A stretch of DNA of 64,000 nucleotides from NCBI RefSeq assembly GCF_001192835.1, contig NZ_DF968182.1, positions 256,349 to 320,348 of the forward strand. Direction: 5' to 3'. Position 1 is the first letter of the stretch, and every line of letters starts with the position of its first letter. The notes under the pieces are model-generated. The model ran no database searches, was not told the DNA's origin, and worked only from the letters and a program-made list of their open reading frames with translations. Origin of the DNA: Lentimicrobium saccharophilum. Its GTDB lineage: Bacteria; Bacteroidota; Bacteroidia; Bacteroidales; Lentimicrobiaceae. A program made the position numbers and the translations under genes. Of this stretch, positions 14,614 to 57,016 are shown piece by piece.

Positions 14614-17600
14614 ATGAAAACATCTACCAACGGCCACAGGGCTGGTGTATTAATGACAGCAGCATTCGCCCTGTTTACAGTTTTATCTGTAACCGCTCAG
14701 TTTGGAACGCAGGAATCCATTGTTCCTAACCGGATTCCGCCTGCTGATATCCCGGGGATATCAGTTGACGGAGGAAATTCTTCGCAAAGGGCTCCTTCAG
14801 GCTCCATTTCAGTGGCTGAAAACGCTACCTATAATGCGATGACTCCTCAGCAGTTGGTTCAGAATGTGCTGGTGACAGGATGTTTGCAGGCTGAAAATAT
14901 CAGATTTGGTTATTATAACCGCAATAATGGAAACTGGACAAATCACACCTGGAGCAGTACCCCCGGAAACCGGATGCTTGGTTATTTTGAAAGGGCTACA
15001 TCCGGCTTCGCGTTGGAAGAGGGACTTGTTTTATCAACCGGGCGGATAAGTTCTGCCATGGGGCCTAACAACAATGCCGGCCGCAGCGATCAGATGGTCT
15101 CCAATGCCTCTGACCCTGACCTTGCCACCATTTCGGGCAGAACCATGTTTGATGCGGCTGTCCTTGAATTTGACTTTATTCCTGCCGGGAATACAGTGGA
15201 GTTTAAGTATGTTTTTGCTTCCGAAGAATATCTTGAGTATGTTCATACCAATTTTAACGATGCTTTCGGATTTTTCCTCAGCGGCCCCGGCATCTCCGGA
15301 CCTTATTCAAATAACGCTATCAATCTTGCCACCCTTCCGAACGGAGAAGATGTAACCATTAATACCATCCACCCTGCAGGGGTAAATACCAACGGTCAGT
15401 CTTATCCTGCCCATAATACTGAATACTACATTGACAATCCTTCGGGATCCCTGACCATGCAGTTTGATGGTTATACGGTTGAGTTAACCGCAACTTATCC
15501 TGTTACCCCCTGTGCTACATACCGCATTAAAATGGCCATTGCCGATGCCTCTGACCAGCAGTGGGATGCCGCAGTATTTCTTGGCGCCAGAAGCTTCAAC
15601 GCCGAAACGCTTTCATTGGCCCACTTCGGTAACGGAATTCAGGATAACAACAATGTATTTGAAGGTTGTACCAACAACAGGCTCGTTGTTACCCGTTTGA
15701 CTACTGATCTGACGGAAGATTATCATGTAGATCTTATTCTTGCCGGCTCTGCCATTAATGGTACCGATATCCTTACTTCCGACGGCCAGCCTTTCCCGAC
15801 ACAAATTGTAATTCCTGCCGGACAGGCTTCCTATGAAATTCCTTATTATGCTGTGAATGATGGTACGGGTGATAATGCAGAAACCTTTATTGTCAGGGTC
15901 AGAAATTCCTGCCCCTGTGATGAAAATATCTCTTATGTTGAAGAAATCATCAATATTTACGAACAGGTAACCATCGCTTCTGTTTCTGCTACCAATGCAC
16001 AGTGTGCCGGCCAGAGCAACGGTGTAATTACTGTCAATGCTACCGGAGGTTCCGGAAATTATCAGTATTCCATTAATAACGGTACAACCTGGCAGGCATC
16101 AAATACTTTCACCGGATTGTCAGCAGGTTCTTATACGGTTCTTGTAAGAGATCCGGGAAGCTGTTACGAACCGGTTTCAGCTGCCGCCACCATTGGAGAG
16201 CCTCAGCCGATAGTTGCCAATGCCGGAAGTGACGTTTCCATCTGTTCTGGCACCAGCACCCAGCTGAACGGAACAGGCGGCGTTTTATACTCATGGAGTC
16301 CAGCCACCGGACTGAGCAATCCTTCTATTGCAAATCCTGTTGCATCTCCGGCTGCCACCACCACCTACACCCTGACCGTTACCAATGCATCCGGACAGTG
16401 TGCATCTACTGATCAGGTAATAGTAACAGTTAATCCTTCACCGGTTGTAACAGTTAATCCAGCAGAAATCGAAGTTTGCCGCGGAACTGAAGTGACCATT
16501 ACAGCTTCGGGAGCAGCCTCTTATGTTTGGAATCCGGGTGGCGCAACCAGCGCATCCATTACAGTGAATCCGGTTTCGAATACTTCTTATACAGTTACAG
16601 GTACTGCAGCCAATGGTTGTACAGGAACTGCTTCTTCATTGGTGATTGTAAAGGCTACGCCCGGCAACGTCAATGCTGGAGCCGATGCAAGCATAGGCCT
16701 TTGCGAAACACATCAGCTGCAGGGTTCCGCAACCGGATCAGGGACACTGCTCTACACATGGACTCCCTCAACAGGACTGAGCAATGCTAGTATTGCCAAT
16801 CCCGTTTTCACTCCTCCGACATCCGGAACCTATACATTTACACTTACAGTTACCAATCAGGCAAGCGGTTGTTCAGTATCGGATGAAATGAGCATTGAAG
16901 TTGCCGAGCCCCTGGCTGTAACTTCTGTTGTGAATAACAACTCATGCACTACCGTTGCAGACGGGTCCATCGATATTACCGTTACCGGGGGATCAGCTCC
17001 TTATGCTTACGGCTGGACCGGTCCCAATGGTTATACTGCCGGAACCGAAGATCTGTCAAATATTGTTGCCGGAACCTATACAGTTGTGGTTACAGATTCG
17101 GATGGATGTACATTCACCGGCAACTATACCGTAGGAACCGTTCCCGATACCACTCCGCCAACGGCAAGTAACCCTGCCGATATCGTCCTTTCCGGATGTA
17201 ATGGCACATTCCCCGATCCTGACATTCTGGTTGTTACCGATGAAAATGACAATTGTGAAACTCCGGTTGTGTCTTGGGTAAGCGATGGCTCACCTGTACT
17301 TGACGGATGTACCGAAACAATTGTAAGAACATACAGTGTTACCGATGGTTCCGGTAATTCGATCAACGTATACCAGAACCTGATCAGAACCATTGACACC
17401 GACGCTCCGGTAATTTCAACCGTAGCCGAAAGCGCTGACCTGGGTTGCAACCCGACCGTTGTAGCTCCTGTTTTCACCGGACTTGACAACTGCGCAGGTG
17501 AATTTACGCCTGAAGTAACCACCACCGGCGTGATCAGCGAAGGATGTGCCTACAGCCAGACCTGGACCGCCAACTATACCGATGCTTGTGGCAATGTAGC

Positions 17601-20600
17601 CGAAGCAATCAGCATTACCTACACCTGGACCGTTGACACTGAAGCTCCGTTAATTTCGACCGTTGCTGAAAGCGGAGACCTTGGCTTTAATCCGACTATT
17701 ACAGCTCCTGAGTTTACAGGACTTGACAATTGTACCGGAATTTTTGCTCCTGTGGTAAGCACTGATGGTCCGGTTGCTGATGGTTGTGATTACAGCCAGA
17801 CATGGACCGCCAATTATACCGACGCCTGTGGCAATGCAGCAGCACCTGTAAGCATTACTTACACCTGGACAGTTGATGATGAACTACCGGTAATCACTAC
17901 TGTTGCTCAGAGTGGTGAACTTGGATGTAACCCGGTTGTAACTGCTCCTGTATTTACAGGACAGGATGGATGTTCAGGTACTTTCGAACCGAATGTATCA
18001 ACAGAAGGCCCCTTAGCCACTGGCTGCAGCTATACTCAGACCTGGACTGCCACTTATACGGATGCAGCCGGAAATGTAGCTGAACCTGTAAGCATTATTT
18101 ATACCTGGACCGTTGACACCGAAGCACCGGTGATCTCAACCGTAGCCGAAAGCGCAGACCTGGGTTGCAACCCGACCGTTGTAGCTCCTGTTTTCACAGG
18201 TCTTGACAACTGTGCAGGTGAGTTTACTCCTGAAGTATCTACTGAAGGTACCTCAAACACTGGCTGCGCTTACAGCCAGAACTGGACCGCCAACTATACC
18301 GACGCCTGTGGCAATGTAGCCGAAGCAATCAGCATTACCTACACCTGGACCGTTGACACCGAAGCTCCGGTAATTTCTACCATAGCTGTAAGCGGAGACC
18401 TTGGTTTTAATCCGACTATTACAGCTCCTGAGTTTACAGGACTTGACAATTGTGCCGGGGTTTTTGCTCCTGTTGTAAGCACTGATGGTCCGGTTGCTGA
18501 TGGTTGTGACTACACCCAGACCTGGACTGCCAATTACACGGATGCCTGTGGCAATGCAGCAGCACCTGTAAGCATTACTTACACATGGACAGTTGACTCC
18601 GAAGCTCCGGTAATCAGCACTGTTGCCCAGAGTGGCGAACTTGGATGTAACCCGGTTGTAACTGCTCCTGTATTTACAGGACTGGATGGATGTTCAGGTA
18701 CTTTCGAACCGAATGTATCAACAGAAGGCCCCTTAGCCACTGGCTGCAGCTATACTCAGACCTGGACTGCCACTTATACGGATGCAGCCGGAAATGTAGC
18801 TGCTCCTGTAAGCATTACCTATACCTGGACTGTTGACACCGAAGCACCGGTAATTTCGACCGTAGCCGAAAGCGCTGACCTGGGTTGCAACCCTGAAGTT
18901 GTAGCTCCTGTTTTCACCGGTCTTGATAACTGCGCAGGTGAGTTTACTCCTGAAGTATCTACTGAAGGTGCCTCAAACACTGGCTGCGCTTACACCCAGA
19001 CCTGGACCTCTAACTATACCGACGCCTGTGGCAATATTGCCGAAGAGGTCAGCATTACCTACACCTGGACCGTTGACACCGAAGCTCCGGTAATTTCGAC
19101 CGTAGCCGAAAGCGCTGACCTTGGTTGCAACCCTGAAGTTGTAGCTCCTGTTTTCACAGGTATTGACAACTGCGCAGGTGAATTTACGCCTGAAGTAACC
19201 ACCACCGGCGTGATCAGCGAAGGATGTGCCTACAGCCAGACCTGGACCGCCAATTATACCGACGCCTGTGGCAATGTAGCCGAAGAGGTCAGCATTACTT
19301 ACAACTGGACCGTTGACACCGAAGTACCGGTGATTTCAACCGTAGCCGAAAGCGCTGACCTGGGTTGTAACCCGACCGTTGTAGCTCCTGTTTTCACCGG
19401 TCTTGACAACTGCGCAGGTGAGTTTACTCCTGAAGTATCTACTGAAGGTGCCTCAAACACTGGCTGCGCTTACATCCAGACCTGGACCGCCAACTATACC
19501 GACACTTGTGGCAATGTAGCCGAAGAGGTAAGCATTACCTACACCTGGACCGTTGACACCGAAGCACCGGTGATCTCTACCTTAGCTGTAAGCGGAGACC
19601 TTGGCTTTAATCCGACTATTACAGCTCCTGAGTTTACAGGACTTGACAATTGTGCCGGGGTTTTTGCTCCTGTTGTAAGCACTGATGGTCCGGTTGCTGA
19701 TGGTTGTGACTACAACCAGACCTGGACTGCCAATTACACGGATGCCTGTGGCAATGCAGCAGCACCTGTAAGCATTACTTACACATGGACAGTTGACTCC
19801 GAAGCTCCGGTAATCAGCACTGTTGCCCAGAGTGGCGAACTTGGATGTAACCCGGTTGTAACTGCTCCTGTATTTACAGGACTGGATGGATGTTCAGGTA
19901 CTTTCGAACCGAATGTATCAACAGAAGGCCCCTTAGCCACTGGCTGCAGCTATACTCAGACCTGGACTGCCACTTATACGGATGCAGCCGGGAATGTTGC
20001 TGAGCCTGTCAGCATTACCTACACCTGGACTGTTGACACCGAAGCTCCGGTGATCTCAACCTTAGCCGAAAGCGCAGACCTGGGTTGCAACCCGACCGTT
20101 GTAGCTCCTGTTTTCACCGGTCTTGACAACTGCGCAGGTGAGTTTACTCCTGAAGTATCTACTGAAGGTGCCTCAAACACTGGCTGCGCTTACAGCCAGA
20201 CCTGGACCGCCAACTATACCGACGCCTGTGGCAATGTAGCCGAAGAGGTCAGCATTACTTATACCTGGACCGTTGACACCGAAGCACCGGTGATCTCTAC
20301 CTTAGCTGTAAGCGGAGACCTTGGCTTTAATCCGACTATTACAGCTCCTGAGTTTACAGGACTTGACAATTGTGCCGGGGTTTTTGCTCCTGTTGTAAGC
20401 ACTGATGGTCCGGTTGCTGATGGTTGTGACTACAACCAGACCTGGACTGCCAATTACACGGATGCCTGTGGCAATGCAGCAGCACCTGTAAGCATTACTT
20501 ACACATGGACAGTTGACTCCGAAGCTCCGGTAATCAGCACTGTTGCCCAGAGTGGCGAACTTGGATGTAACCCGGTTGTAACTGCTCCTGTATTTACAGG

Positions 20601-23600
20601 ACTGGATGGATGTTCAGGTACTTTCGAACCGAATGTATCAACAGAAGGCCCCTTAGCCACTGGCTGCAGCTATACTCAGACCTGGACTGCCACTTATACG
20701 GATGCAGCCGGGAATGTTGCTGAGCCTGTCAGCATTACCTACACCTGGACTGTTGACACCGAAGCTCCGGTGATCTCAACCTTAGCCGAAAGCGCTGACC
20801 TGGGTTGCAACCCTGAAGTTGTAGCTCCTGTTTTCACCGGCCTTGACAACTGTGCAGGTGAGTTTAATCCTGAAGTATCTACTGAAGGTGCCTCAAACAC
20901 TGGCTGCGCTTACAGCCAGACCTGGACCGCCAACTATACCGACGCCTGTGGCAATGTAGCCGAAGAGGTAAGCATTACCTACACCTGGACTGTTGATACC
21001 GAAGCTCCGGTGATCTCAACCGTAGCCGAAAGCGCTGACCTTGGTTGCAACCCGACCGTTGTAGCTCCTGTTTTCACCGGCCTTGACAACTGCGCCGGAG
21101 AATTTACGCCTGAAGTTACCACCACCGGCGTGGTCAGCGAAGGATGTGCCTACACCCAGACCTGGACCGCCAACTATACCGACGCCTGTGGCAATGTAGC
21201 CGAAGCAATCAGCATTACCTACACCTGGACCGTTGACACCGAAGCACCGGTAATTTCTACCTTAGCCGAAAGCGGTGACCTCGGTTGCAACCCGACCGTT
21301 GTAGCTCCTGTTTTCACCGGCTTTGACAACTGTGCAGGTGAGTTTACTCCTGAAGTATCTACTGAAGGTGCCTCAAACACTGGCTGCGCTTACAGCCAGA
21401 CCTGGACCGCCAACTATACCGACGCCTGTGGCAATGTAGCCGAAGAGGTAAGCATTACCTACACCTGGACCGTTGACACCGAAGCACCGGTAATTTCTAC
21501 CTTAGCCGAAAGCGGTGACCTCGGTTGCAACCCGACCGTTGTAGCTCCTGTTTTCACCGGTCTTGACAACTGTGCAGGTGAGTTTACTCCTGAAGTATCT
21601 ACTGAAGGTGCCTCAAACACTGGCTGCGCTTACAGCCAGACCTGGACCGCCAATTATACCGACGCCTGTGGCAATGTAGCCGAAGAGGTCAGCATTACTT
21701 ACACCTGGACTGTTGACACTGAAGCTCCGGTAATTTCTACCATAGCTGTAAGCGGAGACCTTGGTTTTAATCCGACTATTACAGCTCCTGAGTTTACAGG
21801 ACTTGACAATTGTGCCGGGGTTTTTGCTCCTGTTGTAAGCACTGATGGTCCGGTTGCTGATGGTTGTGACTACACCCAGACCTGGACTGCCAATTACACG
21901 GATGCCTGTGGCAATGTAGCAGCACCTGTAAGCATTACTTACACATGGACAGTTGACTCCGAAGCTCCGGTAATCAGCACTGTTGCCCAGAGTGGCGAAC
22001 TTGGATGTAACCCGGATGTAACTGCTCCTGTATTTACAGGACTGGATGGATGTTCAGGTACTTTCGAACCAAATGTATCATCAGCAGGCCCTGTTGCCAA
22101 TGGTTGCAGCTATGCTCAGACCTGGATTGCCACCTATACGGATGCAGCCGGAAATGTAGCTGCTCCTGTAAGCATTACTTATAGCTGGACAGTTGACACC
22201 GAAGCTCCGGTAATCAGCACCACTGCATCAAACGGTGACCTCGGTTGCAACCCGACCGTAGTTGCTCCCGTCTTCACCGGTCTTGACAACTGCGCCGGCG
22301 AATTTGCTCCCGAAGTATCCACCGAAGGTCCGTCAAACGAAGGCTGCGCTTACACCCAGACCTGGACCGCCAACTATACCGACGCCTGCAATAATGCAGC
22401 CACCCCGGTAAGCATTACCTATACCTGGACTGTTGACACCGAAGCTCCGGTAATCTCTACCGTAGCAGCAAGCGGTGACCTTGGCTGCAACCCGACCGTA
22501 GTAGCTCCCGTCTTCACCGGCCTTGACAACTGTGCTGGTGAGTTTACTCCTGAAGTATCTACCGAAGGTCCGTCAAACGAAGGCTGTACTTACACCCAGA
22601 CCTGGACTGCCAACTATACCGACGCCTGTGGCAATGTTGCTGAAGAAGCAAGCATTACCTACACCTGGACCGTTGACACCGAAGCTCCGGTAATCTCTAC
22701 CGTAGCAGTAAGCGGTGACCTTGGCTGCAACCCGACTGTAGAAGCTCCTGTCTTCACTGGTCTTGACAACTGTGCTGGTGAGTTTACTCCTGAAGTATCT
22801 ACCGAAGGTCCGTCAAACGAAGGCTGCGCTTATACCCAGACCTGGACTGCCAACTATACCGACGCCTGTGGCAATGTTGCTGAAGAAGTAAGCATTACCT
22901 ATACATGGACCGTTGACATCGAAGTTCCGGTAATCTCTACCGTTGCAGTAAGCGGTGACCTTGGCTGCAACCCGACTGTAGAAGCTCCTGTCTTCACCGG
23001 TCTTGACAACTGCGCCGGCGAATTTGCTCCCGAAGTATCCACCGAAGGTCCGTCAAACGAAGGTTGTGCTTATACCCAGACCTGGACCGCCAACTATACC
23101 GACGCTTGTGGCAATGTTGCTGAAGAAGTAAGCATTACCTATACCTGGACCGTTGACACCGAAGCTCCGGTAATCTCAACCGTAGCAACAAGCGGTGACC
23201 TTGGCTGCAACCCGACTGTAGAAGCTCCTGTCTTCACCGGTCTTGACAACTGCGCCGGCGAATTTGCTCCCGAAGTATCCACTGAAGGTCCGTCAAACGA
23301 AGGCTGCGCTTACACCCAGACCTGGACTGCCAACTATACCGACGCCTGTGGCAATGTAGCCGAAGAGTTAAGCATTACCTATACCTGGACCGTTGACACC
23401 GAAGCTCCGGTGATCTCAACCGTAGCTGTAAGCGGTGACCTTGGCTGCAATCCTGAGGTTGTTGCTCCTGTCTTCACTGGTCTTGACAACTGCGCCGGCG
23501 AGTTTACTCCCGAAGTATCCACCGAAGGTCCGTCAAACGAAGGCTGTGCTTACACCCAGACCTGGACTGCCAACTATACCGACGCCTGTGGCAATGTTGC

Positions 23601-26600
23601 TGAAGAAGCAAGCATTACCTACACCTGGACCGTTGACACCGAAGCTCCGGTAATCTCTACCGTAGCAGTAAGCGGTGACCTTGGCTGCAACCCTGAAGTA
23701 GTTGCTCCTGCCTTCACCGGTCTTGACAACTGCGCCGGCGAGTTTACTCCTGAAGTATCCACTGAAGGTCCGTCAAACGAAGGCTGCGCCTATACCCAGA
23801 CCTGGACTGCTAACTATACCGACGCCTGTGGCAATGTTGCTGCTCCTGTCAGCATTACCTATACCTGGACTGTTGACACCGAAGCTCCGGTTATCTCAAC
23901 CCTGGCAATCAGCGGTGACCTTGGCTGCAACCCTGAAGTAGTTGCTCCTGCCTTTACCGGTCTTGACAACTGCGCTGGCGAGTTTATTCCCGAAGTATCT
24001 ACCGAAGGTCCGTCAAACGAAGGCTGCGCTTACACCCAGACCTGGACTGCCAACTATACCGATGCCTGCAATAATGCAGCCACTCCGGTAAGCATTACCT
24101 ACACCTGGACCGTTGACACCGAAGCTCCGGTAATCTCTACCCTGGCAGTAAGCGGTGACCTTGGCTGCAACCCTGAAGTAGTTGCTCCTGCCTTCACCGG
24201 TCTTGACAACTGCGCCGGCGAGTTTACTCCTGAAGTATCCACTGAAGGTCCGTCAAACGAAGGCTGCGCCTATACCCAGACCTGGACTGCTAACTATACC
24301 GACGCCTGTGGCAATGTTGCTGCTCCTGTCAGCATTACCTATACCTGGACTGTTGACACCGAAGCTCCGGTTATCTCAACCCTGGCAATCAGCGGTGACC
24401 TTGGCTGCAACCCTGAAGTAGTTGCTCCTGCCTTTACCGGTCTTGACAACTGCGCTGGCGAGTTTATTCCCGAAGTATCTACCGAAGGTCCGTCAAACGA
24501 AGGCTGCGCTTACACCCAGACCTGGACTGCCAACTATACCGATGCCTGCAATAATGCAGCCACTCCGGTAAGCATTACCTACACCTGGACCGTTGACACC
24601 GAAGCTCCGGTGTTTACTAACGCTCCGGTTGATTTAACGGTAAACTGCAATGGTTCCGGAAATACCGGGGATCTCAACAACTGGCTGAACAGCGCAGTTG
24701 CTGAGGATATTTGCGGTGAGGTTACCATTACCAATGATTTTGAAGGGCTTAGTGATCTTTGCGGTGCTACCGGATCTGCAACTGTTACATGGACTGCTAC
24801 AGACAACTGCGGAAACGCTGCAACTACCACTGCAACCTTTACCATAGCTGATACCCAGGCTCCTGAAATAACCTGTCCTCAGAATATTGTAGCTGAAACA
24901 GAACCTGGAATGTGCGGTGCATGGATTGAAGTACCTGTTCCTGCAGCAATCGATGCTTGCGGAGAAGTTACCCTGGTGAATAATATTACCGGAACCAACA
25001 ATGCAACCGGTTCTTATCCTTTAGGTGTAACTACCATTATCTGGACAGCTACCGACGAATGCGGCAACGTTTCAACCTGCAGCATGACCATCACCATCAA
25101 TGATAATGAGGATCCTCATATTATTTGTCCTCAACATATTACGGTTAATAACGATCCCGGCGTATGTGAGGCATTTGTAAATGTTCCCCAGCCTCTCGTA
25201 AGCGACAATTGTGAAATCCGTACCCTTGTTAATACCTACACCCAGACAGATGATGCCTCCGCAGTTTATCCTGTAGGTACAACAGTAGTCTGGTGGACTG
25301 TCGTGGATATGTCAGGAAATTCAAGCACATGCTTTATGAATGTTACAGTAGTTGATGCGGAAGCGCCGGTTATTGTATGTCCTGAGGATATTGCCGTAAG
25401 CACTGATCCCGGAGTTTGTGAAGCTTATGTTACTGTGCCTCTGCCTGAAGTTTCCGATAACTGTGGCGTTGATAACGTTATTAACAGCTTCAACGGCACC
25501 AATGATGCCAGTGGTATCTATCCGGTTGGAAGTACCACCATCATCTGGACTGTTACCGATGTACATGGTCACATTGCTGAATGCTCCATGACGGTTACAG
25601 TATCCGATAATGAGCTTCCTGTTATTGAGTGTCCTGAAGATATCGCTGTTAACACTGATCCTGGTGTTTGTGAAGCATACGTTACCGTACCTCAGCCGGT
25701 TGTATCCGATAACTGCGGAATTGAATCTGTTGTAAACTCATACAATGGCACCGGTGATGCAAGTGGCATCTATCCGACGGGCACAACAACCATCAACTGG
25801 ACAGTTGTTGATATCCATGGTAACCAGTCTGAATGTGTTATGACTGTCACCGTTACTGACAATGAACTTCCGGTAATTGTATGCCCCGAAGATATCTCTG
25901 TAAATACGGATCCTGGCGTTTGCGAAGCCGATATAACCGTTCCACAGCCTGTTGTATCAGATAACTGCGGAATTGAATTTGTGGTGAACAGCTTCAACGG
26001 GACAGATAATGCAAGCGGAGTTTATCCGACAGGTACAACCACCGTTGTATGGACAGTTACTGATATTCACGGATTGACTTCAACCTGTGAAATGATTGTG
26101 ACTGTTTCTGACAATGAGCTGCCGGTGATCGAATGTCCTGAAGACATCACTGTTGTTGCAGGAGCCGGATGCACTGCACTTGTTGAAATTCCTGAGCCTG
26201 TTGTTTCTGACAACTGTGGAATAGAGAGTGTGGTAAGCAGCACAGGCACTGCCGGCAGTATTGAACTGCCTGCAGGTATCCATGAGATTTCCTGGACTGC
26301 CACCGATATTCATGGAAATCAGGCAAGCTGCAGCATGCTGGTAACAGTAATAGCCGGACCAATCGCCAATGATGACAATGATGTTACGGAAATGAATATT
26401 CCGGTATCGGTACCTGTTCTTGAGAACGATACAGATTGCGATAACAACATCGATCCTTCAACAGTAACCGTGATTACCAATCCTGCAAACGGATTCACCA
26501 TGGTTGACCCGCAAAACGGAAACATTCTTTATACTCCGAATACCGGCTTCCACGGAACCGATACCTTTATCTACCGGGTATGCGACCTGAGCGGTCTCTG

Positions 26601-27228
26601 CGATGATGCCACTGTAACCATCGTGATAGAAGGAGAAGACCCCCCTGCACCCATTTATCTTATTGCGGTTGCTGACCTGGACACTACCCTGGTAAATACG
26701 CCGAGACTGATAACCAACATGTTCAATGATATAGTCCCTGAAGGCATTACTGCAGGCATTGAAATCCTGACCCAGCCTTCAAACGGATCTCTTGAACTCC
26801 ATAGCGATATGACGGTGACTTACACTCCGGCTCCTGATTTCACCGGGATGGATGAGTTTACCTACATTCTCTATGATATCAATGGAGTTGCCATCTCCGA
26901 CACCGCAGTTTCCGTTATTGTAGTGGTACCGGATCCGGGTCGTGCCGAGGTCATCATCTACAATGGAATAACACCGAACGGTGACGGCCGCAATGACAAA
27001 TGGATCATAGACGGAATAGAAGAGTATGGTGACAATGAAGTCCTTCTTTTCAACCGCTGGAGCGACCAGGTTCGGTATTTCGAGAATTACAACAATACCT
27101 CGGTAGTATGGGACGGAACCAATAAGAATGGCAAAATGTTGCCTGATGGTACCTACTATTATATCGTCAAACTGAGGTCGGTAAATGAAATCTATACAGG
27201 CTGGGTGATTATTCACGGCAGCAATTGA
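14614..27228 (+). CDS. Giant T9SS-secreted repeat protein (SprB-like adhesin, 4204 aa)
   Basis: Start chosen at the ATG at 14614, which gives a signal peptide (GVLMTAAFALFTVLSVTAQ); the frame is open further upstream without one. Domains in order: a choice-of-anchor-L-like domain (about 75-330, GFALEEGLVLSTGRI and VFASEEYLEYV); a SprB-type repeat (about 453-529); PKD/Ig-like units and another SprB-type repeat to about 860; 30 tandem 80-residue four-cysteine HYR-like repeats (930-3329); one variant and six HYR domains (about 3330-3915, CPEDIAVNTDPGVCEAYV type); two cadherin/Big-like domains; and a type-B gliding C-terminal domain (about 4108-4204, NGITPNGDGRNDKWIIDGIE) that directs T9SS export and surface attachment. 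It is probably a filamentous surface adhesin or motility protein. The following PorP/SprF and OmpA-like genes form its cassette. Ligand unknown. Confidence 0.93.
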   Translation: MKTSTNGHRAGVLMTAAFALFTVLSVTAQFGTQESIVPNRIPPADIPGISVDGGNSSQRAPSGSISVAENATYNAMTPQQLVQNVLVTGCLQAENIRFGYYNRNNGNWTNHTWSSTPGNRMLGYFERATSGFALEEGLVLSTGRISSAMGPNNNAGRSDQMVSNASDPDLATISGRTMFDAAVLEFDFIPAGNTVEFKYVFASEEYLEYVHTNFNDAFGFFLSGPGISGPYSNNAINLATLPNGEDVTINTIHPAGVNTNGQSYPAHNTEYYIDNPSGSLTMQFDGYTVELTATYPVTPCATYRIKMAIADASDQQWDAAVFLGARSFNAETLSLAHFGNGIQDNNNVFEGCTNNRLVVTRLTTDLTEDYHVDLILAGSAINGTDILTSDGQPFPTQIVIPAGQASYEIPYYAVNDGTGDNAETFIVRVRNSCPCDENISYVEEIINIYEQVTIASVSATNAQCAGQSNGVITVNATGGSGNYQYSINNGTTWQASNTFTGLSAGSYTVLVRDPGSCYEPVSAAATIGEPQPIVANAGSDVSICSGTSTQLNGTGGVLYSWSPATGLSNPSIANPVASPAATTTYTLTVTNASGQCASTDQVIVTVNPSPVVTVNPAEIEVCRGTEVTITASGAASYVWNPGGATSASITVNPVSNTSYTVTGTAANGCTGTASSLVIVKATPGNVNAGADASIGLCETHQLQGSATGSGTLLYTWTPSTGLSNASIANPVFTPPTSGTYTFTLTVTNQASGCSVSDEMSIEVAEPLAVTSVVNNNSCTTVADGSIDITVTGGSAPYAYGWTGPNGYTAGTEDLSNIVAGTYTVVVTDSDGCTFTGNYTVGTVPDTTPPTASNPADIVLSGCNGTFPDPDILVVTDENDNCETPVVSWVSDGSPVLDGCTETIVRTYSVTDGSGNSINVYQNLIRTIDTDAPVISTVAESADLGCNPTVVAPVFTGLDNCAGEFTPEVTTTGVISEGCAYSQTWTANYTDACGNVAEAISITYTWTVDTEAPLISTVAESGDLGFNPTITAPEFTGLDNCTGIFAPVVSTDGPVADGCDYSQTWTANYTDACGNAAAPVSITYTWTVDDELPVITTVAQSGELGCNPVVTAPVFTGQDGCSGTFEPNVSTEGPLATGCSYTQTWTATYTDAAGNVAEPVSIIYTWTVDTEAPVISTVAESADLGCNPTVVAPVFTGLDNCAGEFTPEVSTEGTSNTGCAYSQNWTANYTDACGNVAEAISITYTWTVDTEAPVISTIAVSGDLGFNPTITAPEFTGLDNCAGVFAPVVSTDGPVADGCDYTQTWTANYTDACGNAAAPVSITYTWTVDSEAPVISTVAQSGELGCNPVVTAPVFTGLDGCSGTFEPNVSTEGPLATGCSYTQTWTATYTDAAGNVAAPVSITYTWTVDTEAPVISTVAESADLGCNPEVVAPVFTGLDNCAGEFTPEVSTEGASNTGCAYTQTWTSNYTDACGNIAEEVSITYTWTVDTEAPVISTVAESADLGCNPEVVAPVFTGIDNCAGEFTPEVTTTGVISEGCAYSQTWTANYTDACGNVAEEVSITYNWTVDTEVPVISTVAESADLGCNPTVVAPVFTGLDNCAGEFTPEVSTEGASNTGCAYIQTWTANYTDTCGNVAEEVSITYTWTVDTEAPVISTLAVSGDLGFNPTITAPEFTGLDNCAGVFAPVVSTDGPVADGCDYNQTWTANYTDACGNAAAPVSITYTWTVDSEAPVISTVAQSGELGCNPVVTAPVFTGLDGCSGTFEPNVSTEGPLATGCSYTQTWTATYTDAAGNVAEPVSITYTWTVDTEAPVISTLAESADLGCNPTVVAPVFTGLDNCAGEFTPEVSTEGASNTGCAYSQTWTANYTDACGNVAEEVSITYTWTVDTEAPVISTLAVSGDLGFNPTITAPEFTGLDNCAGVFAPVVSTDGPVADGCDYNQTWTANYTDACGNAAAPVSITYTWTVDSEAPVISTVAQSGELGCNPVVTAPVFTGLDGCSGTFEPNVSTEGPLATGCSYTQTWTATYTDAAGNVAEPVSITYTWTVDTEAPVISTLAESADLGCNPEVVAPVFTGLDNCAGEFNPEVSTEGASNTGCAYSQTWTANYTDACGNVAEEVSITYTWTVDTEAPVISTVAESADLGCNPTVVAPVFTGLDNCAGEFTPEVTTTGVVSEGCAYTQTWTANYTDACGNVAEAISITYTWTVDTEAPVISTLAESGDLGCNPTVVAPVFTGFDNCAGEFTPEVSTEGASNTGCAYSQTWTANYTDACGNVAEEVSITYTWTVDTEAPVISTLAESGDLGCNPTVVAPVFTGLDNCAGEFTPEVSTEGASNTGCAYSQTWTANYTDACGNVAEEVSITYTWTVDTEAPVISTIAVSGDLGFNPTITAPEFTGLDNCAGVFAPVVSTDGPVADGCDYTQTWTANYTDACGNVAAPVSITYTWTVDSEAPVISTVAQSGELGCNPDVTAPVFTGLDGCSGTFEPNVSSAGPVANGCSYAQTWIATYTDAAGNVAAPVSITYSWTVDTEAPVISTTASNGDLGCNPTVVAPVFTGLDNCAGEFAPEVSTEGPSNEGCAYTQTWTANYTDACNNAATPVSITYTWTVDTEAPVISTVAASGDLGCNPTVVAPVFTGLDNCAGEFTPEVSTEGPSNEGCTYTQTWTANYTDACGNVAEEASITYTWTVDTEAPVISTVAVSGDLGCNPTVEAPVFTGLDNCAGEFTPEVSTEGPSNEGCAYTQTWTANYTDACGNVAEEVSITYTWTVDIEVPVISTVAVSGDLGCNPTVEAPVFTGLDNCAGEFAPEVSTEGPSNEGCAYTQTWTANYTDACGNVAEEVSITYTWTVDTEAPVISTVATSGDLGCNPTVEAPVFTGLDNCAGEFAPEVSTEGPSNEGCAYTQTWTANYTDACGNVAEELSITYTWTVDTEAPVISTVAVSGDLGCNPEVVAPVFTGLDNCAGEFTPEVSTEGPSNEGCAYTQTWTANYTDACGNVAEEASITYTWTVDTEAPVISTVAVSGDLGCNPEVVAPAFTGLDNCAGEFTPEVSTEGPSNEGCAYTQTWTANYTDACGNVAAPVSITYTWTVDTEAPVISTLAISGDLGCNPEVVAPAFTGLDNCAGEFIPEVSTEGPSNEGCAYTQTWTANYTDACNNAATPVSITYTWTVDTEAPVISTLAVSGDLGCNPEVVAPAFTGLDNCAGEFTPEVSTEGPSNEGCAYTQTWTANYTDACGNVAAPVSITYTWTVDTEAPVISTLAISGDLGCNPEVVAPAFTGLDNCAGEFIPEVSTEGPSNEGCAYTQTWTANYTDACNNAATPVSITYTWTVDTEAPVFTNAPVDLTVNCNGSGNTGDLNNWLNSAVAEDICGEVTITNDFEGLSDLCGATGSATVTWTATDNCGNAATTTATFTIADTQAPEITCPQNIVAETEPGMCGAWIEVPVPAAIDACGEVTLVNNITGTNNATGSYPLGVTTIIWTATDECGNVSTCSMTITINDNEDPHIICPQHITVNNDPGVCEAFVNVPQPLVSDNCEIRTLVNTYTQTDDASAVYPVGTTVVWWTVVDMSGNSSTCFMNVTVVDAEAPVIVCPEDIAVSTDPGVCEAYVTVPLPEVSDNCGVDNVINSFNGTNDASGIYPVGSTTIIWTVTDVHGHIAECSMTVTVSDNELPVIECPEDIAVNTDPGVCEAYVTVPQPVVSDNCGIESVVNSYNGTGDASGIYPTGTTTINWTVVDIHGNQSECVMTVTVTDNELPVIVCPEDISVNTDPGVCEADITVPQPVVSDNCGIEFVVNSFNGTDNASGVYPTGTTTVVWTVTDIHGLTSTCEMIVTVSDNELPVIECPEDITVVAGAGCTALVEIPEPVVSDNCGIESVVSSTGTAGSIELPAGIHEISWTATDIHGNQASCSMLVTVIAGPIANDDNDVTEMNIPVSVPVLENDTDCDNNIDPSTVTVITNPANGFTMVDPQNGNILYTPNTGFHGTDTFIYRVCDLSGLCDDATVTIVIEGEDPPAPIYLIAVADLDTTLVNTPRLITNMFNDIVPEGITAGIEILTQPSNGSLELHSDMTVTYTPAPDFTGMDEFTYILYDINGVAISDTAVSVIVVVPDPGRAEVIIYNGITPNGDGRNDKWIIDGIEEYGDNEVLLFNRWSDQVRYFENYNNTSVVWDGTNKNGKMLPDGTYYYIVKLRSVNEIYTGWVIIHGSN
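17401..24600 (+). repeat. 30 tandem 240-bp coding repeats without indels
   Basis: The period is exactly 240 bp for 30 units. By protein sequence they fall into A (20 units: LGCNP, DNCAGEF, DACGN or DACNN), B (5 units: LGFNP, NCAGVFAPVV, SDGP-like) and C (5 units: LGCNP, DGCSGTF, DAAGN). The order is A B C A B C A A A B C A B C A A A A B C, then ten A-type units of a distinct subfamily (STEGPSNEGC). B is always followed by C. Two long identical blocks (19543-20075 with 20263-20795; 23665-24131 with 24145-24611) show recent duplications of three and two units. Confidence 0.97.
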
Positions 27229-27359: not shown

Positions 27360-28307
27360 ATGAAAAAGTCAATACTCATCATCGGACTGTTTCTGGTAAC
27401 AGTAAGTGCCATGTCGCAGAGAGATGCACTTTACAGCCAGTTTATGTTTAACCGGTTGGTTATCAACCCGGGTTACACAGGAAGCCGTGACATGCTTACC
27501 ATGACGCTGCTGAACCGTTACCAGTGGGTGGGGTTTGGCGATGGCGCACCCAGAACGCTCACTTTCAGCGCACATTCACCCCTGCGTAATGAAAATGTTG
27601 CGCTTGGTATGTATGTATATGCCGACCAGACCGGCCCTTTTACCGATGTCGGATTTATGGGCAATTATGCCTATCGTGTTCGTCTGTTCAAAGGAATTCT
27701 TTCATTGGGCCTTCAGGCAGGTTTCAACCAGGTGAATGTTGACTGGGATGCCCTGGAGATGCGCGACGGCGACGATGAAGTGATCCTTAACAGGCCAAAG
27801 AACAAGCTACAGCCTGATGCGAATTTCGGGATCTACTATTATACCCGTTCATATTACCTGGGCGTATCATCCAAGCAGTTATTTGAAAGTCAGTATGGTA
27901 AAGTTGAATTCGAAAACGGACTCACATCCTATGCCACCCTGGCCAGGCATTTTTATGGTATTGCCGGTTTGGCGCTGCCGCTCTCTGATAACGTTGTTTT
28001 CCGGCCTGGCATGATGTTTAAGTACACCGCCAATGCCCCGCTCAATATGGACCTGAATGCCAGCTTTCTCTTCAATGATGTGTTATGGGTCGGCGCATCC
28101 TACAGAACCAATAAGAATGCCATAACCAGCAAGAATGCCATCGTGTTTATGGTGGAACTAAACCTGACAGACAACTGGAGACTCGGTTATTCATACGATG
28201 CTTATCTTACGGAGATGAAAACCCATACCCAGGGATCGCACGAGGTGATGATTTCTTATGACATGAACCTGTTTAAGCCCAGATTATTGACTCCGAGGTA
28301 TTTCTGA
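27360..28307 (+). CDS. PorP/SprF family type IX secretion membrane protein
   Basis: 315 residues, a signal peptide (SILIIGLFLVTVSAMSQ) then RDALYSQFMFNRLVINPGYTG, the hallmark start of PorP/SprF proteins, and alternating beta strands to the C-terminus (MISYDMNLFKPRLLTPRYF). These outer-membrane beta-barrels work with the T9SS. SprF-like members are needed for export and surface anchoring of type-B cargo such as SprB and are usually encoded directly after it, as here, 131 bp downstream. Length and ends are standard. It is probably dedicated to the giant protein upstream. No separate TAnnTTTG promoter was seen, so co-transcription is likely. Confidence 0.93.
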   Translation: MKKSILIIGLFLVTVSAMSQRDALYSQFMFNRLVINPGYTGSRDMLTMTLLNRYQWVGFGDGAPRTLTFSAHSPLRNENVALGMYVYADQTGPFTDVGFMGNYAYRVRLFKGILSLGLQAGFNQVNVDWDALEMRDGDDEVILNRPKNKLQPDANFGIYYYTRSYYLGVSSKQLFESQYGKVEFENGLTSYATLARHFYGIAGLALPLSDNVVFRPGMMFKYTANAPLNMDLNASFLFNDVLWVGASYRTNKNAITSKNAIVFMVELNLTDNWRLGYSYDAYLTEMKTHTQGSHEVMISYDMNLFKPRLLTPRYF

Positions 28308-28359
28308 GGAGGCGGATGAAGTGGACAGGAATGCTAAAATGGAATTAAAGAATAAAATT

Positions 28360-30435
28360 ATGAAAACTAAATATCTGGTCCTGCTGATTTCGGTTGCTGT
28401 TTTGATCAACCCTCAGCTTTTTGCTCAAAAGTCGAAGGCCGACAGGCTTTTCAACCGCTTTGAATATGCGAAGGCGATCCCTTATTATGAGAGACTGGCA
28501 CAAAAGCAGAACAAGCATGAAGTCTATGCCCTCACAAGGTTGGGCGATTGTCACCGGTTGATCAGCAATTTTGAAGCTGCAGCCTCTTATTATGAAAAAC
28601 TTGCTGTTGCAGGAGTAAACGATGCCAGCGTTTATTTTAATTACGGACAGGTATTACGCAGCATGGGTAAGTATGATGAAGCGGCAACGCAGTTTCAGCG
28701 CTATGCGGTAATGAATCCGGAAGATCAGAGAGGTGCGCTTTTTGCAAGGTATAGCACTGAAGTCAAAACCTGGGCTGAACCTGAATACTTATATGAATTG
28801 TTCAATGCCGGTACAATAAATTCCGAATATGCTGATTTCTCGCCGGTCTATATGAATGACGGAATGGTTTTCACTACCGACCGTATGGCTCAGTCGGGCG
28901 AGAAACGCTATGGCTGGACCATGGCTTATTATCTTGACCTGTTTTTTGCCCAGCTGAAAGCGGATGAGCAGTCAGGAATTATGGTTCCGGGAAGCCCGTC
29001 GGTTTATTCCAGCCGGATTAATCAGGCATACCATGATGGACCGGCCACTTTTTCAAGCGACTTTAACACCTTGTATTTTACAAGGGTGAGTCGCAAAGCC
29101 GGTGAACTGGATTCTACAAGATATTATACCAACCGCCTGAAACTTTTTTCAAGCAATGCTGAAGATGGAAAGTGGAGTGATCCTGTTCCATTCTATCTTA
29201 ACAGCGATGCCTATTCTGTAGGACATCCTGCCTTATCGGCCGACGGGCAAACCCTTTATTTTGCTTCCGACATGCCGGGCGGATTCGGAGGCACTGACCT
29301 TTACCGCGTGAGACGTCAGGGTGATGGCTGGGGCCCGGCAGAAAATCTCGGGGCAACCATCAATTCTTTTGGAAATGAAATGTTTCCTTATGTTTATAAG
29401 GATAGTGTCTTATATTTCTCTTCAGACGGACATGCCGGGCTTGGCAGTCTTGATATCTTCAGGTCGGAAACAGATGGCGAAAGCTGGGGAAAACCTGAGA
29501 ATATGAAAGCTCCGGTAAACTCACCCGCCGATGATTTCGGGATCGTTTTCCACAGCAATGGGACCGAGGGCATGCTCAGCTCAAACAGGCCCGGCGGTAA
29601 GGGACAGGATGACATATATTTGTTTAAGGTCAGCGAAAGGATTCCCGATTCCGTACTGATCGCCGGATTGGTCAGGGACAAGGAAACAATGGAAGTGCTG
29701 CGGAACGCAACCGTTTTTATGCTGAACACAATGAATAATGAGGTCCTTGTATTGAAAACGGATGAAAACGGAAAATACACTGTTAAAATTAAAAGAGGCG
29801 CTTCATTGCTGTTTAAAGGGATTAAGGGCGGCTACTATCCCGATTGCATTAACCTGGAGCTCGGAGCGGAATCTAAAGAAGCTGAAATTGAAAACAGGGA
29901 CCTGCTCCTTGCAAAGTATAAGGTTGATCAGATTTTTGTCCTTGAAAACATTTATTACGATTTTGACAAGTGGAACATCAGACCTGATGCCGCCGTTGAA
30001 CTTAACAAAGTTGTTACTTTCCTTACCGAGAATCCTGATATTCTGGTTGAACTGGGTTCGCACACCGATGCCAGGGGAAGCTTCAAATACAATGAACGGC
30101 TTTCCGACCGCAGGGCTGAATCTGCGGTGGAATACATTATTTCCCGTGGAATTGCCAAAGGGCGTATTACAGCCAATGGTTACGGAGAATACAAACTGGT
30201 AAACAAATGTGCCGACGGCATAAACTGCAGCGAAGAAGAACATCAGCAAAACAGACGCACTGAGATTAAGATTTCAGGTGACGCTGCTACCGATGACGCC
30301 GGATCACAGGAACCACTGAATAAGTATCAGGCCGGACAACTTCTGCAGCTGAAAGATTTTGATGAGAACTTCTTTAAAAACTGCGGAGGTACAGGTACTG
30401 GGAATGAACTACCTATTTACACCCCAAAGGAATAA
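28360..30435 (+). CDS. OmpA-family protein with TPR, PD40 and CarboxypepD-like domains (PorE-like)
   Basis: About 691 residues from the ATG at 28360; ATG 28339 and GTG 28321 are upstream alternatives, but 28360 gives the cleanest signal peptide (YLVLLISVAVLINPQLFAQ). Domains: TPR-like helices (about 25-135, FEYAKAIPYYERLA), PD40/WD40-like beta-propeller blades (about 150-430, GHPALSADGQTLYFASDMPGG), a carboxypeptidase-D-like regulatory domain (about 435-520), and a C-terminal OmpA peptidoglycan-binding domain (about 527-640, YDFDKWNIRPDAAVELNKV; SHTDARG). This is the architecture of PorE (Porphyromonas T9SS) and of OmpA proteins that accompany SprB/SprF pairs. It would link the secretion site to peptidoglycan. 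It begins 52 bp after the PorP/SprF gene, in the same operon. Confidence 0.9.
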   Translation: MKTKYLVLLISVAVLINPQLFAQKSKADRLFNRFEYAKAIPYYERLAQKQNKHEVYALTRLGDCHRLISNFEAAASYYEKLAVAGVNDASVYFNYGQVLRSMGKYDEAATQFQRYAVMNPEDQRGALFARYSTEVKTWAEPEYLYELFNAGTINSEYADFSPVYMNDGMVFTTDRMAQSGEKRYGWTMAYYLDLFFAQLKADEQSGIMVPGSPSVYSSRINQAYHDGPATFSSDFNTLYFTRVSRKAGELDSTRYYTNRLKLFSSNAEDGKWSDPVPFYLNSDAYSVGHPALSADGQTLYFASDMPGGFGGTDLYRVRRQGDGWGPAENLGATINSFGNEMFPYVYKDSVLYFSSDGHAGLGSLDIFRSETDGESWGKPENMKAPVNSPADDFGIVFHSNGTEGMLSSNRPGGKGQDDIYLFKVSERIPDSVLIAGLVRDKETMEVLRNATVFMLNTMNNEVLVLKTDENGKYTVKIKRGASLLFKGIKGGYYPDCINLELGAESKEAEIENRDLLLAKYKVDQIFVLENIYYDFDKWNIRPDAAVELNKVVTFLTENPDILVELGSHTDARGSFKYNERLSDRRAESAVEYIISRGIAKGRITANGYGEYKLVNKCADGINCSEEEHQQNRRTEIKISGDAATDDAGSQEPLNKYQAGQLLQLKDFDENFFKNCGGTGTGNELPIYTPKE

Positions 30436-32902: not shown

Positions 32903-35900
32903 TTATTGCGCAAGGGTGAATCTCAGGCTCACACCGGCATTGGTCGTTGAATTGGGAAACTGTGAGGAAACAAACGGGTTGGTAATCGTTTTATCAAAGA
33001 ACAGGCGCACATTAAACCGCTGGTTGATCACATAATCGGCTGAGGAGTTGATGGAGACCATTCTGTTTCCGGTTGAAATCTGATTGATCTCTTCATCGAG
33101 CCGGCGCAATACCGTTTTGTTGTCCCTTACCGAAAGGTCAAGTTTGACATTCAGGTCGCTCTTCAATTGCTGCCTTCTGCCTCCGCTCGAGAGGTTCAGT
33201 TTAACATCCTTGAAGCGGTATCCCACCCCGATGATCAGTTCATTGCTCCTGACTTCGGTAACCTGGTTGTTGACAAAGCTTAACTGCAGTGAACGGGCTT
33301 TCTTGATTTCAAACCTTGAAAGCAAACTATTATTCCAGGTCATGTCGAAATTGATCAGCGGGCTGAACTGTTCGGTAATGGCAATGGCATCAATCTGGTT
33401 TTTTGGTATGAAATTCTGATTGAAGTCCAGCGCGGACTGGAAGCCAAGATTTTCAAGATAATCCACATTCGATACGTAGTTGCCTATGGAGTAAGTGGAC
33501 AGATAGGCATGTGAGATTGTCAGATTCTTCAGGTATTGCTTGAAATAGGGTATTTTGCTCAGTCCCGTGTATGAAAATCTCCAGTTGGGGATGGGAATTT
33601 TCGGGAAGGGCGAGAGTGAAACTTTCATCGGGTCGCGACCGGTATAGGCAGCTATAAATGCTGGTATGATGACATCCTGTGATCCGCTGCCGTAGCCGGA
33701 GGGGAAAGTGTCGGTGAGCATGGAATTCGGGTTCAGTTCACTCAGCCTTTTCGCGATGATGATGCGATAGTCCTTGAAATTCTCGAAGACTTCATTGATG
33801 TTTTCTTCCCCGTCCTTTTTGAAGGCGGTTTTAAGGGTATAGAATGAAATGCTGAATGAGCCCCTGTCCTGCGGGGAGGTTGAAGTGAATTCCCCGTTTG
33901 CGTTGGCCTTGAAATATTCCTGGTAAGCAAATGATTCCTTCTTTTCAGCGGTAAATTCCACCCTGAATTCAGGGAATGGTTCATAGGTAATCCTGGCATT
34001 CAGATTCTTCGTAGCCCGGGTGATGTAAGCGCTGTTAAGCAGGGTGTCCGTTGTCAGCCACTGATTACGCACAGCCCTTGACCGGATGTCTTCCTGGCTT
34101 CCGAAGGCGAAGCCGAAGCCCGGTGCCATATCGGAAAGTCTGCTCCCAAGGATGTCGGGCTGTGGCATAAATCCTGGCAACAGCGTCCCCTGGGATTCGG
34201 AGTAGGTAAACTGAACATCTTTAATTCCGATAATCAGTTTTACAATGCCGATACCCAGCGCTTTGGCGATCTGGGGAGATTTTTTTGCCGTGGTGTCTGC
34301 CTGGGCCGCGGTCTGCTGTGGGTCGGGTTCTTTCGGGGCCTGACGTGCAGCCTGCCCGGGCCTTTGCGGAGACTGACTCCTCCCTTGTTGCCCGATCTTC
34401 CGCAGGAATGACCATTTGTTATAAAGATTGGTCATGCGCGCACTACCATTGATGTTGATGGTATTTGAATTTTCAATGGTATTTCCCATTATCGACTGTA
34501 TGGACCTTGGCGATGCTTCCCAGCGGAAAGTGCTGGCATACCTGGCATTCAGCGAAATCCAGTTCAGTAAGGGAATCTTGTTGATGGGCACGATGTAATT
34601 CAGGTTCATGTTCTGCGTGAAGCGGTTCATGCTTCCGAAGTTCATGATTTCGTCCCAGATTGAATCCCGCTTGGCCTGCCAGTCATCCGCGGTCCGGTTG
34701 ATCTGTCCGGGAGGCTCACTGATGTAAGCGTTGGCATTGGCCTGATACTCCAGTTTCAGTGATTGCGCCAGGTCGAACTTCAGGTCATACAACCTGTTCC
34801 AGTCCCACGATTTGGTATACGTAGGCTCAAGTATGATCAATGCATCACTCTTGTTCCGCAGCAGCCGTTCATTGTATTGCCTGTTCATATCCGTCCTGAA
34901 TCCGAACATCTTGGGCATATAGAAGAAGTTGAAATCCTTGATGATCGCCAGTGACTTGCTCTGCAGGAATTTGACATTCTGGAATGGCTTAACCGGTTTG
35001 GGATTATACAGGAAGTTATAGCCTATCCCGCCCCTGAACTGCTTGCGGCTGTCGTATTCAATATCTATGTTTCTGTGGAATATTTCAGAGTAAGCGTAAG
35101 TAAAGTCAAAATTTTCAATGTCGTAAATGCGCGTTTTGCCCTGGGCGCCAACTTTCTCCTTGCGCATATTCACAAAGTTGATGTTGGTTCTCCGGGTAAT
35201 GTCCTGCACCTTGTTTCTTACCGAATCCCTTTCATTCCTTTCAAGGTCGTTCATCACCTCGCTCATCAGGATATCGGGGTCCAGCGGATCGTATTTCGGG
35301 GTCATGCGCATTTCGGAATAGTCGATGTGCATCGGGATTTTGATACCGGCTTTTTCCGGAAAGAACTTGCCCAACTGAATGTTGGTGGCCACATCAACCT
35401 GCCCGACAGCTTCCTGCTGCCTTTCATTAACTTTTTTCTCAATGCTTCCGAAACCGGCGGTGGAGTAGCTTCCCGAAAGCACGACGTTGCCAAGGTCGGC
35501 CAGATTGGCGGCGATCCTGGCCGTGGCGGCAAATCCGCTTTTCTCATCAAAATCGGTAAGCCGCAGCTCATTCACCCATACCTCCACGCATTTGGATTCC
35601 CCGTCATCATTGTCGGTTATAAACTGCTTCTTCGGATTTCTGACGCCGATCATAAACGCTTTTACATCGCTCATGCTGGGCATACCCACCACGGTAATCC
35701 GGTTTTCTCCGTCGTAAACTTCGTAGGGGGTCATTACCGTGACCATCGATCCGGGGCGGCCCATGGCATCATTGCGCTGTTGCTTGGCTTTCACCAGTTT
35801 GTCCAGTTCTATATCCAGCCGGTTGGCATCGGGCCAGATGAGGCCGGGATTGGCGGCAGTGGTGTACCAAGGGGTCATCTCCACGGGAACTTCATACTCA

Positions 35901-56898: not shown

Positions 56899-57016
56899 GA
56901 TTTCAGATTTCAGATTTCGGATTTTTAAGGCTGAGGTCATCCTTCGGCTTCGCTCAGCAACCAAGGTTGAGGTTGATGTGTTTATTTTAGAAATTAGAAA
57001 TTAGAAATTAGAAATT
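56899..57016. repeat. Two 7-bp microsatellites upstream of pccB
   Basis: At 56899-56925 the heptamer TTTCAGA recurs about three times; at 56989-57016 the heptamer AGAAATT occurs exactly four times. Between them lies CTTCGGCTTCGCTCAGCAACC, a piece of a common dispersed repeat. Confidence 0.75.

Follow-up and report, generated by a model that had tools for sequence, protein, structure and literature searches.

The longest proteins of Bacteroidota include giant T9SS fibres, and little is known on how the stalks of such fibres hold their shape under load. A gene of Lentimicrobium saccharophilum, the genome of which comprises 4,514,407 bases in two contigs, raises this question. We analysed a 64-kb stretch of this genome (the window, 64,000 nucleotides, G+C content of 49%), in which the frame at 14614-27228 on the forward strand contains a single stop codon, at its end, and encodes a product of 4204 aa and 436 kDa. 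The mechanical ORF begins upstream with a TTG codon (14365), and the ATG at 14614 opens a sequence that resembles a signal peptide by eye. The gene and its surroundings comprise the following features (unit types A, B and C are described below).

14614..27228, + strand: 4204-aa type-B T9SS surface protein, whole gene (ORF and translation)
14614..14700, + strand: signal peptide, residues 1-29 (by eye)
14947..15597, + strand: choice-of-anchor L domain, putative distal head, residues 112-328 (NF038133, 205 bits)
15976..17145, + strand: SprB repeats and PKD-like domains, residues 455-844 (PF13573, PF22352; phmmer similarity to GhpA, 9flp)
17146..17391, + strand: first HYR_4C-type domain of the stalk, three cysteines, without Cys4 (weak PF23237 match of 16.8 bits, under the cut-off of 27)
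17392..24591, + strand: 30 exact 240-bp units, HYR_4C domains of types ABCABCAAABCABCAAAABCAAAAAAAAAA (TRF, Pfam, motif anchoring)
24592..24846, + strand: long HYR_4C domain with an insert, four cysteines, the last full HYR_4C domain (sequence)
24847..25098, + strand: transitional HYR/HYR_4C domain, five cysteines, with Cys4 and without Cys3 (sequence)
25099..26328, + strand: remaining HYR domains, approximate bounds by eye (PF02494, six stretches in the protein)
26329..26868, + strand: two Big_9 / cadherin-like domains, approximate bounds by eye (PF17963)
26965..27225, + strand: type-B CTD (CHU_C), residues 4118-4204 (PF13585, 74 bits; TIGR04131, 49 bits, cut-off 35)
27360..28307, + strand: PorP/SprF-family protein, putative shuttle/anchor, no cysteine (TIGR03519, 264 bits; cysteine count)
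28321..30435, + strand: PorE-like protein (TPR, PD40, and OmpA with an NxxLSxxR stretch), start codon uncertain (Pfam, above cut-offs)
32903..40135, - strand: SprA/Sov T9SS translocon gene, a neighbour that belongs to the machinery and not to the fibre (TIGR04189, 2699 bits)

Profile searches bore out the domain order that had been proposed from the letters alone (anchor-L-like head, SprB-type repeats, stalk, HYR domains and CTD) and support the classification as a type-B T9SS cargo and giant stalked surface protein, as a TIGR04131/CHU_C domain is present at the C terminus, a signal peptide was recognised by eye and a PorP/SprF gene lies directly downstream. The preliminary description knew of no described counterpart for the head and the stalk, and here it has to be corrected: the head is a choice_anch_L domain (NF038133, 205 bits) and the stalk is made of HYR_4C domains, the profile of which (PF23237) matches in 26 stretches with 535.6 bits (Pfam). 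In addition to the profile match, the four cysteines of HYR_4C are present in 20/30 units, and three are present in 10/30. A match to a toxin-deaminase family (PF14424, 40 bits, without a separate stretch) overlaps the HYR_4C units and was rejected as spurious. The kind of protein, a type-B T9SS stalked surface protein, is already known, and for this one a static, adhesin-like fibre is the most likely form.

Using TRF, we detected a period of 240 with 30.1 copies and 0% indels (17389-24611), and motif anchoring delimited 30 units of 80 aa at 17392-24591, every motif spacing being 80. Together with the frame check, this confirmed the earlier report of a 4204-residue ORF in which thirty units of exactly 240 bp follow each other without indels, and the 57 percent of the gene attributed to the repeats was reproduced (30 x 240 / 12615 = 57%). 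The mean pairwise identity of the units is 78% in nucleotides (62-100%) and 81% in amino acids, dN/dS between units is about 0.14-0.16, and the unit pairs 10 and 13, 11 and 14, and 28 and 30 are 100% identical in nucleotides. We read these identities, the low dN/dS and the identical pairs as signs that the array is old, evolves under purifying selection and has recently undergone block duplications. Elsewhere in the window (56987-57016), the 7-bp sequence TTAGAAA is perfectly repeated in tandem (x 4.3).

The PorE-like frame starts 13 bp 3' of PorP. We call its product PorE-like, and not PorE, because its match to the PorE model NF052230 (431 bits) is under the cut-off of 600; it is also under the cut-off of NCBIfam CHU_0125, and its CarboxypepD_reg match (23 bits) is under the Pfam cut-off of 32. 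PorE is built of four parts, TPR, PD40, CarboxypepD_reg and OmpA, in the passages of PMC9143113 that describe it. In the tail loci of same-genus relatives, PorP was identified in 10/10 cases (once in two pieces) and the PorE-like gene in 9/10. Passages of PMC9143113 on such trios postulate that non-mobile type-B proteins are tied to the wall via PorP-PorE, and that mobile ones such as SprB have no PorE-like neighbour. In its part on an F. johnsoniae protein that is static and has neighbours of this kind, PMC12618676 suggests that proteins encoded in this way are non-mobile and wall-anchored. Homology and gene order point in the same direction for the window, where the fibre would be anchored to the wall.

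We consider the most interesting feature of the protein to be the cysteine pattern of its stalk, which is absent from the preliminary description. The 20 units of type A have four cysteines, the five units of type B have Phe in place of Cys1, and the five units of type C have Ala in place of Cys4. The types follow each other in the order ABCABCAAABCABCAAAABC, then ten A, and B is followed by C in 5/5 cases, giving five dyads.

17632..18111, + strand: B-C dyad 1, units 2-3, with a predicted unstapled joint (cysteine types)
18352..18831, + strand: B-C dyad 2, units 5-6 (cysteine types)
19552..20031, + strand: B-C dyad 3, units 10-11, 100% identical in nucleotides to dyad 4 (cysteine types, unit identity)
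20272..20751, + strand: B-C dyad 4, units 13-14 (cysteine types, unit identity)
21712..22191, + strand: B-C dyad 5, units 19-20 (cysteine types)

The homologues in two same-genus relatives (G010 and G018) show the same succession, B then C, in 5/5 complete cases, and one more B meets the end of a contig. Across the window and these two genomes, Cys1 is replaced by F, Y or H and Cys4 by A or Q. G018 encodes another, more diverged protein, in which three B-C pairs were counted. The cysteine count is thus odd in each of these domains and even over the pair, which suggests bonds between domains. When the array is cut at the B|C junctions, the window segments of k = 3, 3, 5, 3 and 6 domains contain 10, 10, 18, 10 and 22 cysteines, which equals 4k-2, a count that derives from the cysteine types and is not independent of them. 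The sixth segment (k = 13) contains 52 cysteines for a predicted 50; it ends in the HYR/HYR_4C hybrid, which may add one HYR-type cysteine pair. At the ends of the window array, Cys4 is missing from the first domain; the last full HYR_4C domain has all four cysteines, and Cys3 is missing from the transitional domain that follows it.

To place this pattern, we surveyed HYR_4C arrays in two sets. The first comprised 77 sources (the window and 76 loci) with 853 HYR-type domains and 61 arrays of at least three HYR_4C domains. The second comprised 60 new loci with 903 domains and 59 arrays, fetched after the predictions had been written down, although 2/3 of the groups searched were families already sampled. 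Two overlapping loci (L192 and L193) led to one first domain without Cys4 being counted twice; it was removed, leaving 119 distinct arrays in the pooled set. Among the non-edge first domains of the first set (n=38), 21 are complete, 12 lack Cys2 and five lack Cys4, and among the last domains (n=48), 20 are complete, 15 lack Cys1, 12 lack Cys3 and one lacks Cys2. The second set has 20 complete first domains, 18 without Cys4, one without Cys2 and one without Cys1 (n=40, or 39 without the duplicate), and 15 complete last domains, 13 without Cys3 and five without Cys1 (n=33). Incomplete domains of the new loci thus lack Cys2 or Cys4 in 18/19 cases when they come first and Cys1 or Cys3 in 18/18 cases when they come last.

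In the pooled set, 35/36 incomplete first domains lack Cys2 or Cys4, and 45/46 incomplete last domains lack Cys1 or Cys3 (35:1 and 1:45, Fisher 7e-21, duplicate removed), which we refer to as the facing rule. The two exceptions are a first domain without Cys1 (L224) and a last domain without Cys2 (L164). When the ends were clustered at 50% identity, the counts became 20:1 and 1:22 (4e-10), and at 40% identity 12:0 and 1:11 (1e-5); at 30% identity, the ends form five clusters and nothing is significant (p=0.4). Ends with exactly three cysteines give 19:1 for first domains and 0:39 for last domains, and the cysteine number is odd in 80/82 incomplete ends. Domains with three cysteines represent 59/158 ends as compared with 33/1049 inner domains, and all four cysteines are retained in 1001/1049 inner domains, a total in which about five domains of the duplicated array are counted twice.

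Complete ends are common (41/77 first and 35/81 last domains), and 76/158 ends overall show no loss. The outer 85 residues contain an odd number of cysteines next to 17/40 complete and 3/36 incomplete first domains (p=0.0007, post hoc), and next to 20/33 complete and 17/46 incomplete last domains (p=0.04, weak and post hoc). An odd flank at complete ends is what one would predict if the chain terminated there in a domain that escaped recognition. For breaks inside arrays, the prediction that a domain without Cys1 or Cys3 is followed by one without Cys2 or Cys4 failed as coded (4/13 in the new loci). On reading, 8/13 of these breaks have a displaced Cys1, and 4/5 of the rest fit (post hoc; the four that fit look homologous by eye). 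Adjacent incomplete domains face each other in 19 pairs and stand back to back in seven; under the model given below, the latter would be two-domain segments, except in L250, where Cys1 is merely displaced. The 13 Cys1/Cys4 breaks are confined to one genus and are largely related by descent, the six Cys1/Cys2 breaks are spread over six loci, of which four resemble each other, and different cysteines of one face are lost in different families. We found no paper with an HYR_4C or HYR-like domain in the open-licence part of PMC, and neither interdomain disulfides in HYR domains nor the facing rule appear among the matches listed from that collection. We regard the facing rule of HYR_4C cysteines and the regular breaks in the window protein as new.

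Our reading, to which we assign a probability of roughly 0.6, is that of a statically anchored T9SS fibre whose stalk is stapled by disulfides between neighbouring HYR_4C domains and has five unstapled B|C joints. The fibre would leave the cell by way of the T9SS, be collected via its type-B domain at the C terminus by a PorP/SprF barrel of its own, and be attached to peptidoglycan by the PorE-like protein; the choice-of-anchor-L head would form the distal end and would probably be the part that binds. In the stalk, about 32 HYR_4C Ig-like domains would follow each other in a chain, each with one internal disulfide, and one disulfide per junction would link Cys1 or Cys3 of domain n to Cys2 or Cys4 of domain n+1. 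This bond would be absent at the five B|C junctions, which would act as soft joints between covalently stapled rods. Several findings weigh against this reading: the failed prediction for breaks inside arrays, the many complete ends, the two exceptions to the facing rule, the loss of significance at 30% identity, the shared ancestry of many of the observations, the weak flank test for last domains, and the fact that neither VKOR nor DsbB was found in the genome.

The cues on which cysteines might pair conflict, the ends of arrays and the breaks inside them pointing to different pairs. The B|C dyads suggest Cys1(n)-Cys4(n+1), and the Cys1/Cys2 breaks suggest Cys1(n)-Cys2(n+1). Among domains that have both Cys3 and Cys4, Cys1 and Cys2 are lost together in none, and the single losses number 43 and 33 (the 33 falling to 17 when the search span was widened). 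A Cys1-Cys2 bond within one HYR_4C domain was dropped as a candidate on this ground. The two-cysteine HYR-type domains of L058 retain only Cys1 and Cys2, which may pair internally. Odds ratios for loss within the same domain are 51 for Cys3-Cys4, 13 for Cys1-Cys3, 11 for Cys1-Cys4 and 0.4 for Cys1-Cys2, in a test that is confounded by the HYR domains in the set. The quality of the AF2 models was too low for use, both for four consecutive units (A-B-C-A, five window rows; pLDDT 53.5, pTM 0.28) and for the head (six rows; pLDDT 40.6). Searches of PDB gave no disulfide template, either with a profile of the units (best E=0.05) or with a broad HYR_4C profile, the best match of which was weak (2kpn, Bacillolysin, E=0.0098).

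We assign the same probability, roughly 0.6, to the broader reading that HYR_4C arrays across Bacteroidota are covalently stapled filaments, that their ends are marked by the loss of outward cysteines, and that some proteins, including the one described here, have unstapled joints at set places which tune the stiffness or extensibility of a secreted fibre. If the facing rule is true and shows where the staples stop, segment length and joint position would be readable from sequence alone, and HYR_4C domains produced one at a time might misfold or have unpaired cysteines.

The cysteines could be explained in other ways. All four might pair within their own domain, the end and joint domains keeping a free thiol that cross-links other chains or non-HYR neighbours. 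The odd counts at 80/82 incomplete ends agree with this, since at least one thiol there needs an outside partner, and no structure speaks against intradomain bonds. We nevertheless consider such pairing unlikely, because it does not predict which cysteine is lost, whereas it is the outward-facing cysteine that goes missing (35:1 and 1:45); in addition, internal breaks are seen in complementary neighbours (the 19 facing pairs), and the loss of Cys1 together with Cys2 was never seen in a domain with Cys3 and Cys4. It is also conceivable that the pattern reflects the inherited ancestry of end domains and has no present role, the cysteines being largely reduced in an anaerobe. The lifestyle of the source organism is anaerobic, VKOR and DsbB were not found in its genome, though this genome encodes many cysteine-rich secreted domains, and the end domains fall into only five clusters at 30% identity. 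An idle pattern of this kind is very unlikely in our view, given the low dN/dS between units (about 0.15), the retention of all four cysteines in nearly all inner domains, and the losses on the same face that differ between families.

Other doubts concern the fibre as a whole. The preliminary description leaned towards gliding, and a mobile SprB-like adhesin that the GldJ/K/N track moves along the cell would fit the type-B CTD with its PorP/SprF partner, the SprB repeats near the head and the GldJ homologue that is above cut-off in the genome. The gliding function of SprF, however, needs a twin-Cys C-tail bonded to GldK in the passages of PMC12635249 on this protein. The PorP of the window has 0 cysteines and thus no such tail linking it to the gliding track as SprF links SprB; in the last 40 residues of nine full-length orthologues, there was likewise none. 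The adjoining PorE-like gene is an arrangement that PMC9143113, in the passages cited above, postulates for non-mobile cargo. A static wall-tethered fibre fits the trio of type-B cargo, cysteine-free PorP and PorE-like protein better than a gliding adhesin, which we regard as distinctly unlikely, and the lean towards gliding is left unsupported. To a predation fibre resembling the grappling hook of Aureispira we give hardly any chance: GhpA (9flp) was the only PDB sequence match up to E=1 and reached E=1.6e-28, but the likeness by sequence is limited to the PKD-like repeats (about residues 455-852) and the CTD, whereas the HYR_4C stalk and the head are unmatched and homology over the whole protein was not found. 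Finally, the copy number could be a product of the assembly, the true array being longer, shorter or variable. Three unit pairs are identical in nucleotides, and contigs of relatives break at or near the array, so that relatives cannot serve to check the number: for the ten same-genus genomes whose head match (58-98% identity) is near full-length, the contig stops 718-3737 bp beyond this match in 10/10 cases, and in a further genome (G006) a partial head match lies at the end of a contig. Thirty in-frame units without an indel, their graded divergence (62-100%) and a genome in two contigs make such an artefact highly improbable.

Head and stalk appear to be exchanged as modules, judging from the sequences of relatives. 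The head was identified at 73-98% identity in five MAGs, named Bacteroidales bacterium (three), Bacteroidetes bacterium (one) and Lentimicrobium sp. (one). The syntenic locus of G018 (L063, G018:C24), with a pseudouridine synthase gene upstream and the PorP and PorE-like genes downstream, encodes a 2030-aa version with a different head in which the tail is conserved along with the PorP and PorE-like genes, and the head search gave no match to the window-type head in G018. Conversely, the head is kept and followed by other HYR-type repeats in relatives (genomes G005, G009 and G012; loci L056, L058 and L034), these repeats including short two-cysteine units in L058 and L034.

Four more giant frames with HYR-type or type-B CTD matches were detected in the genome of L. 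saccharophilum itself (9894, 7750, 3096 and 3375 aa; at about 3069099-3081110 and at 2366524 on contig C1, and at 1342015 and 1358434 on contig C2), two of which exceed the window protein in size. In other genomes (G233:C25, G1019:C41 and G1040:C92), HYR_4C-type matches were observed in open frames that encode 10686, 9868 and 8775 aa. In one locus (L152, G768:C8:128000-140000), an HYR_4C array extends over two reading frames, the end domains of which look alike, as if it were frameshifted.

Several known systems resemble the window protein in part. Fibrillar adhesins, in the parts of PMC8286594 that define them, combine an adhesive domain, a repeated stalk and an anchor, with CHU_C among the anchors, and the head of the window protein would be the putative adhesive domain; the main text of PMC8286594 contains 0 occurrences of HYR or disulfide. 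The complexes of type-B proteins with PorP and PorE (PG1035-PorP-PorE of P. gingivalis and Fjoh_3952-3951-3950 of F. johnsoniae, in the relevant passages of PMC9143113 and PMC12618676) share the CTD and the PorP/SprF and PorE-like neighbours, and differ in that the window cargo has a stalk of 30 HYR_4C units. PorE is a lipoprotein in the same passages of PMC9143113, whereas the PorE-like protein of the window has no cysteine before residue 77. SprB of F. johnsoniae is likewise a giant repetitive type-B cargo with an SprF-family partner and SprB repeats. Unlike SprB, the window protein has a PorE-like neighbour, a PorP free of cysteine and an HYR_4C stalk, and the earlier statement that the two are comparable in size holds only loosely, both being giant but the window protein having 436 kDa as compared with the 669 kDa given for SprB in PMC9143113 (in the part that lists it). 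The other HYR_4C (PF23237) arrays of Bacteroidota are alike in having the same domain with four cysteines in tandem, and the window array stands apart from them by an exact register of 80 aa over 30 units and by regular B|C dyads with complementary cysteine loss.
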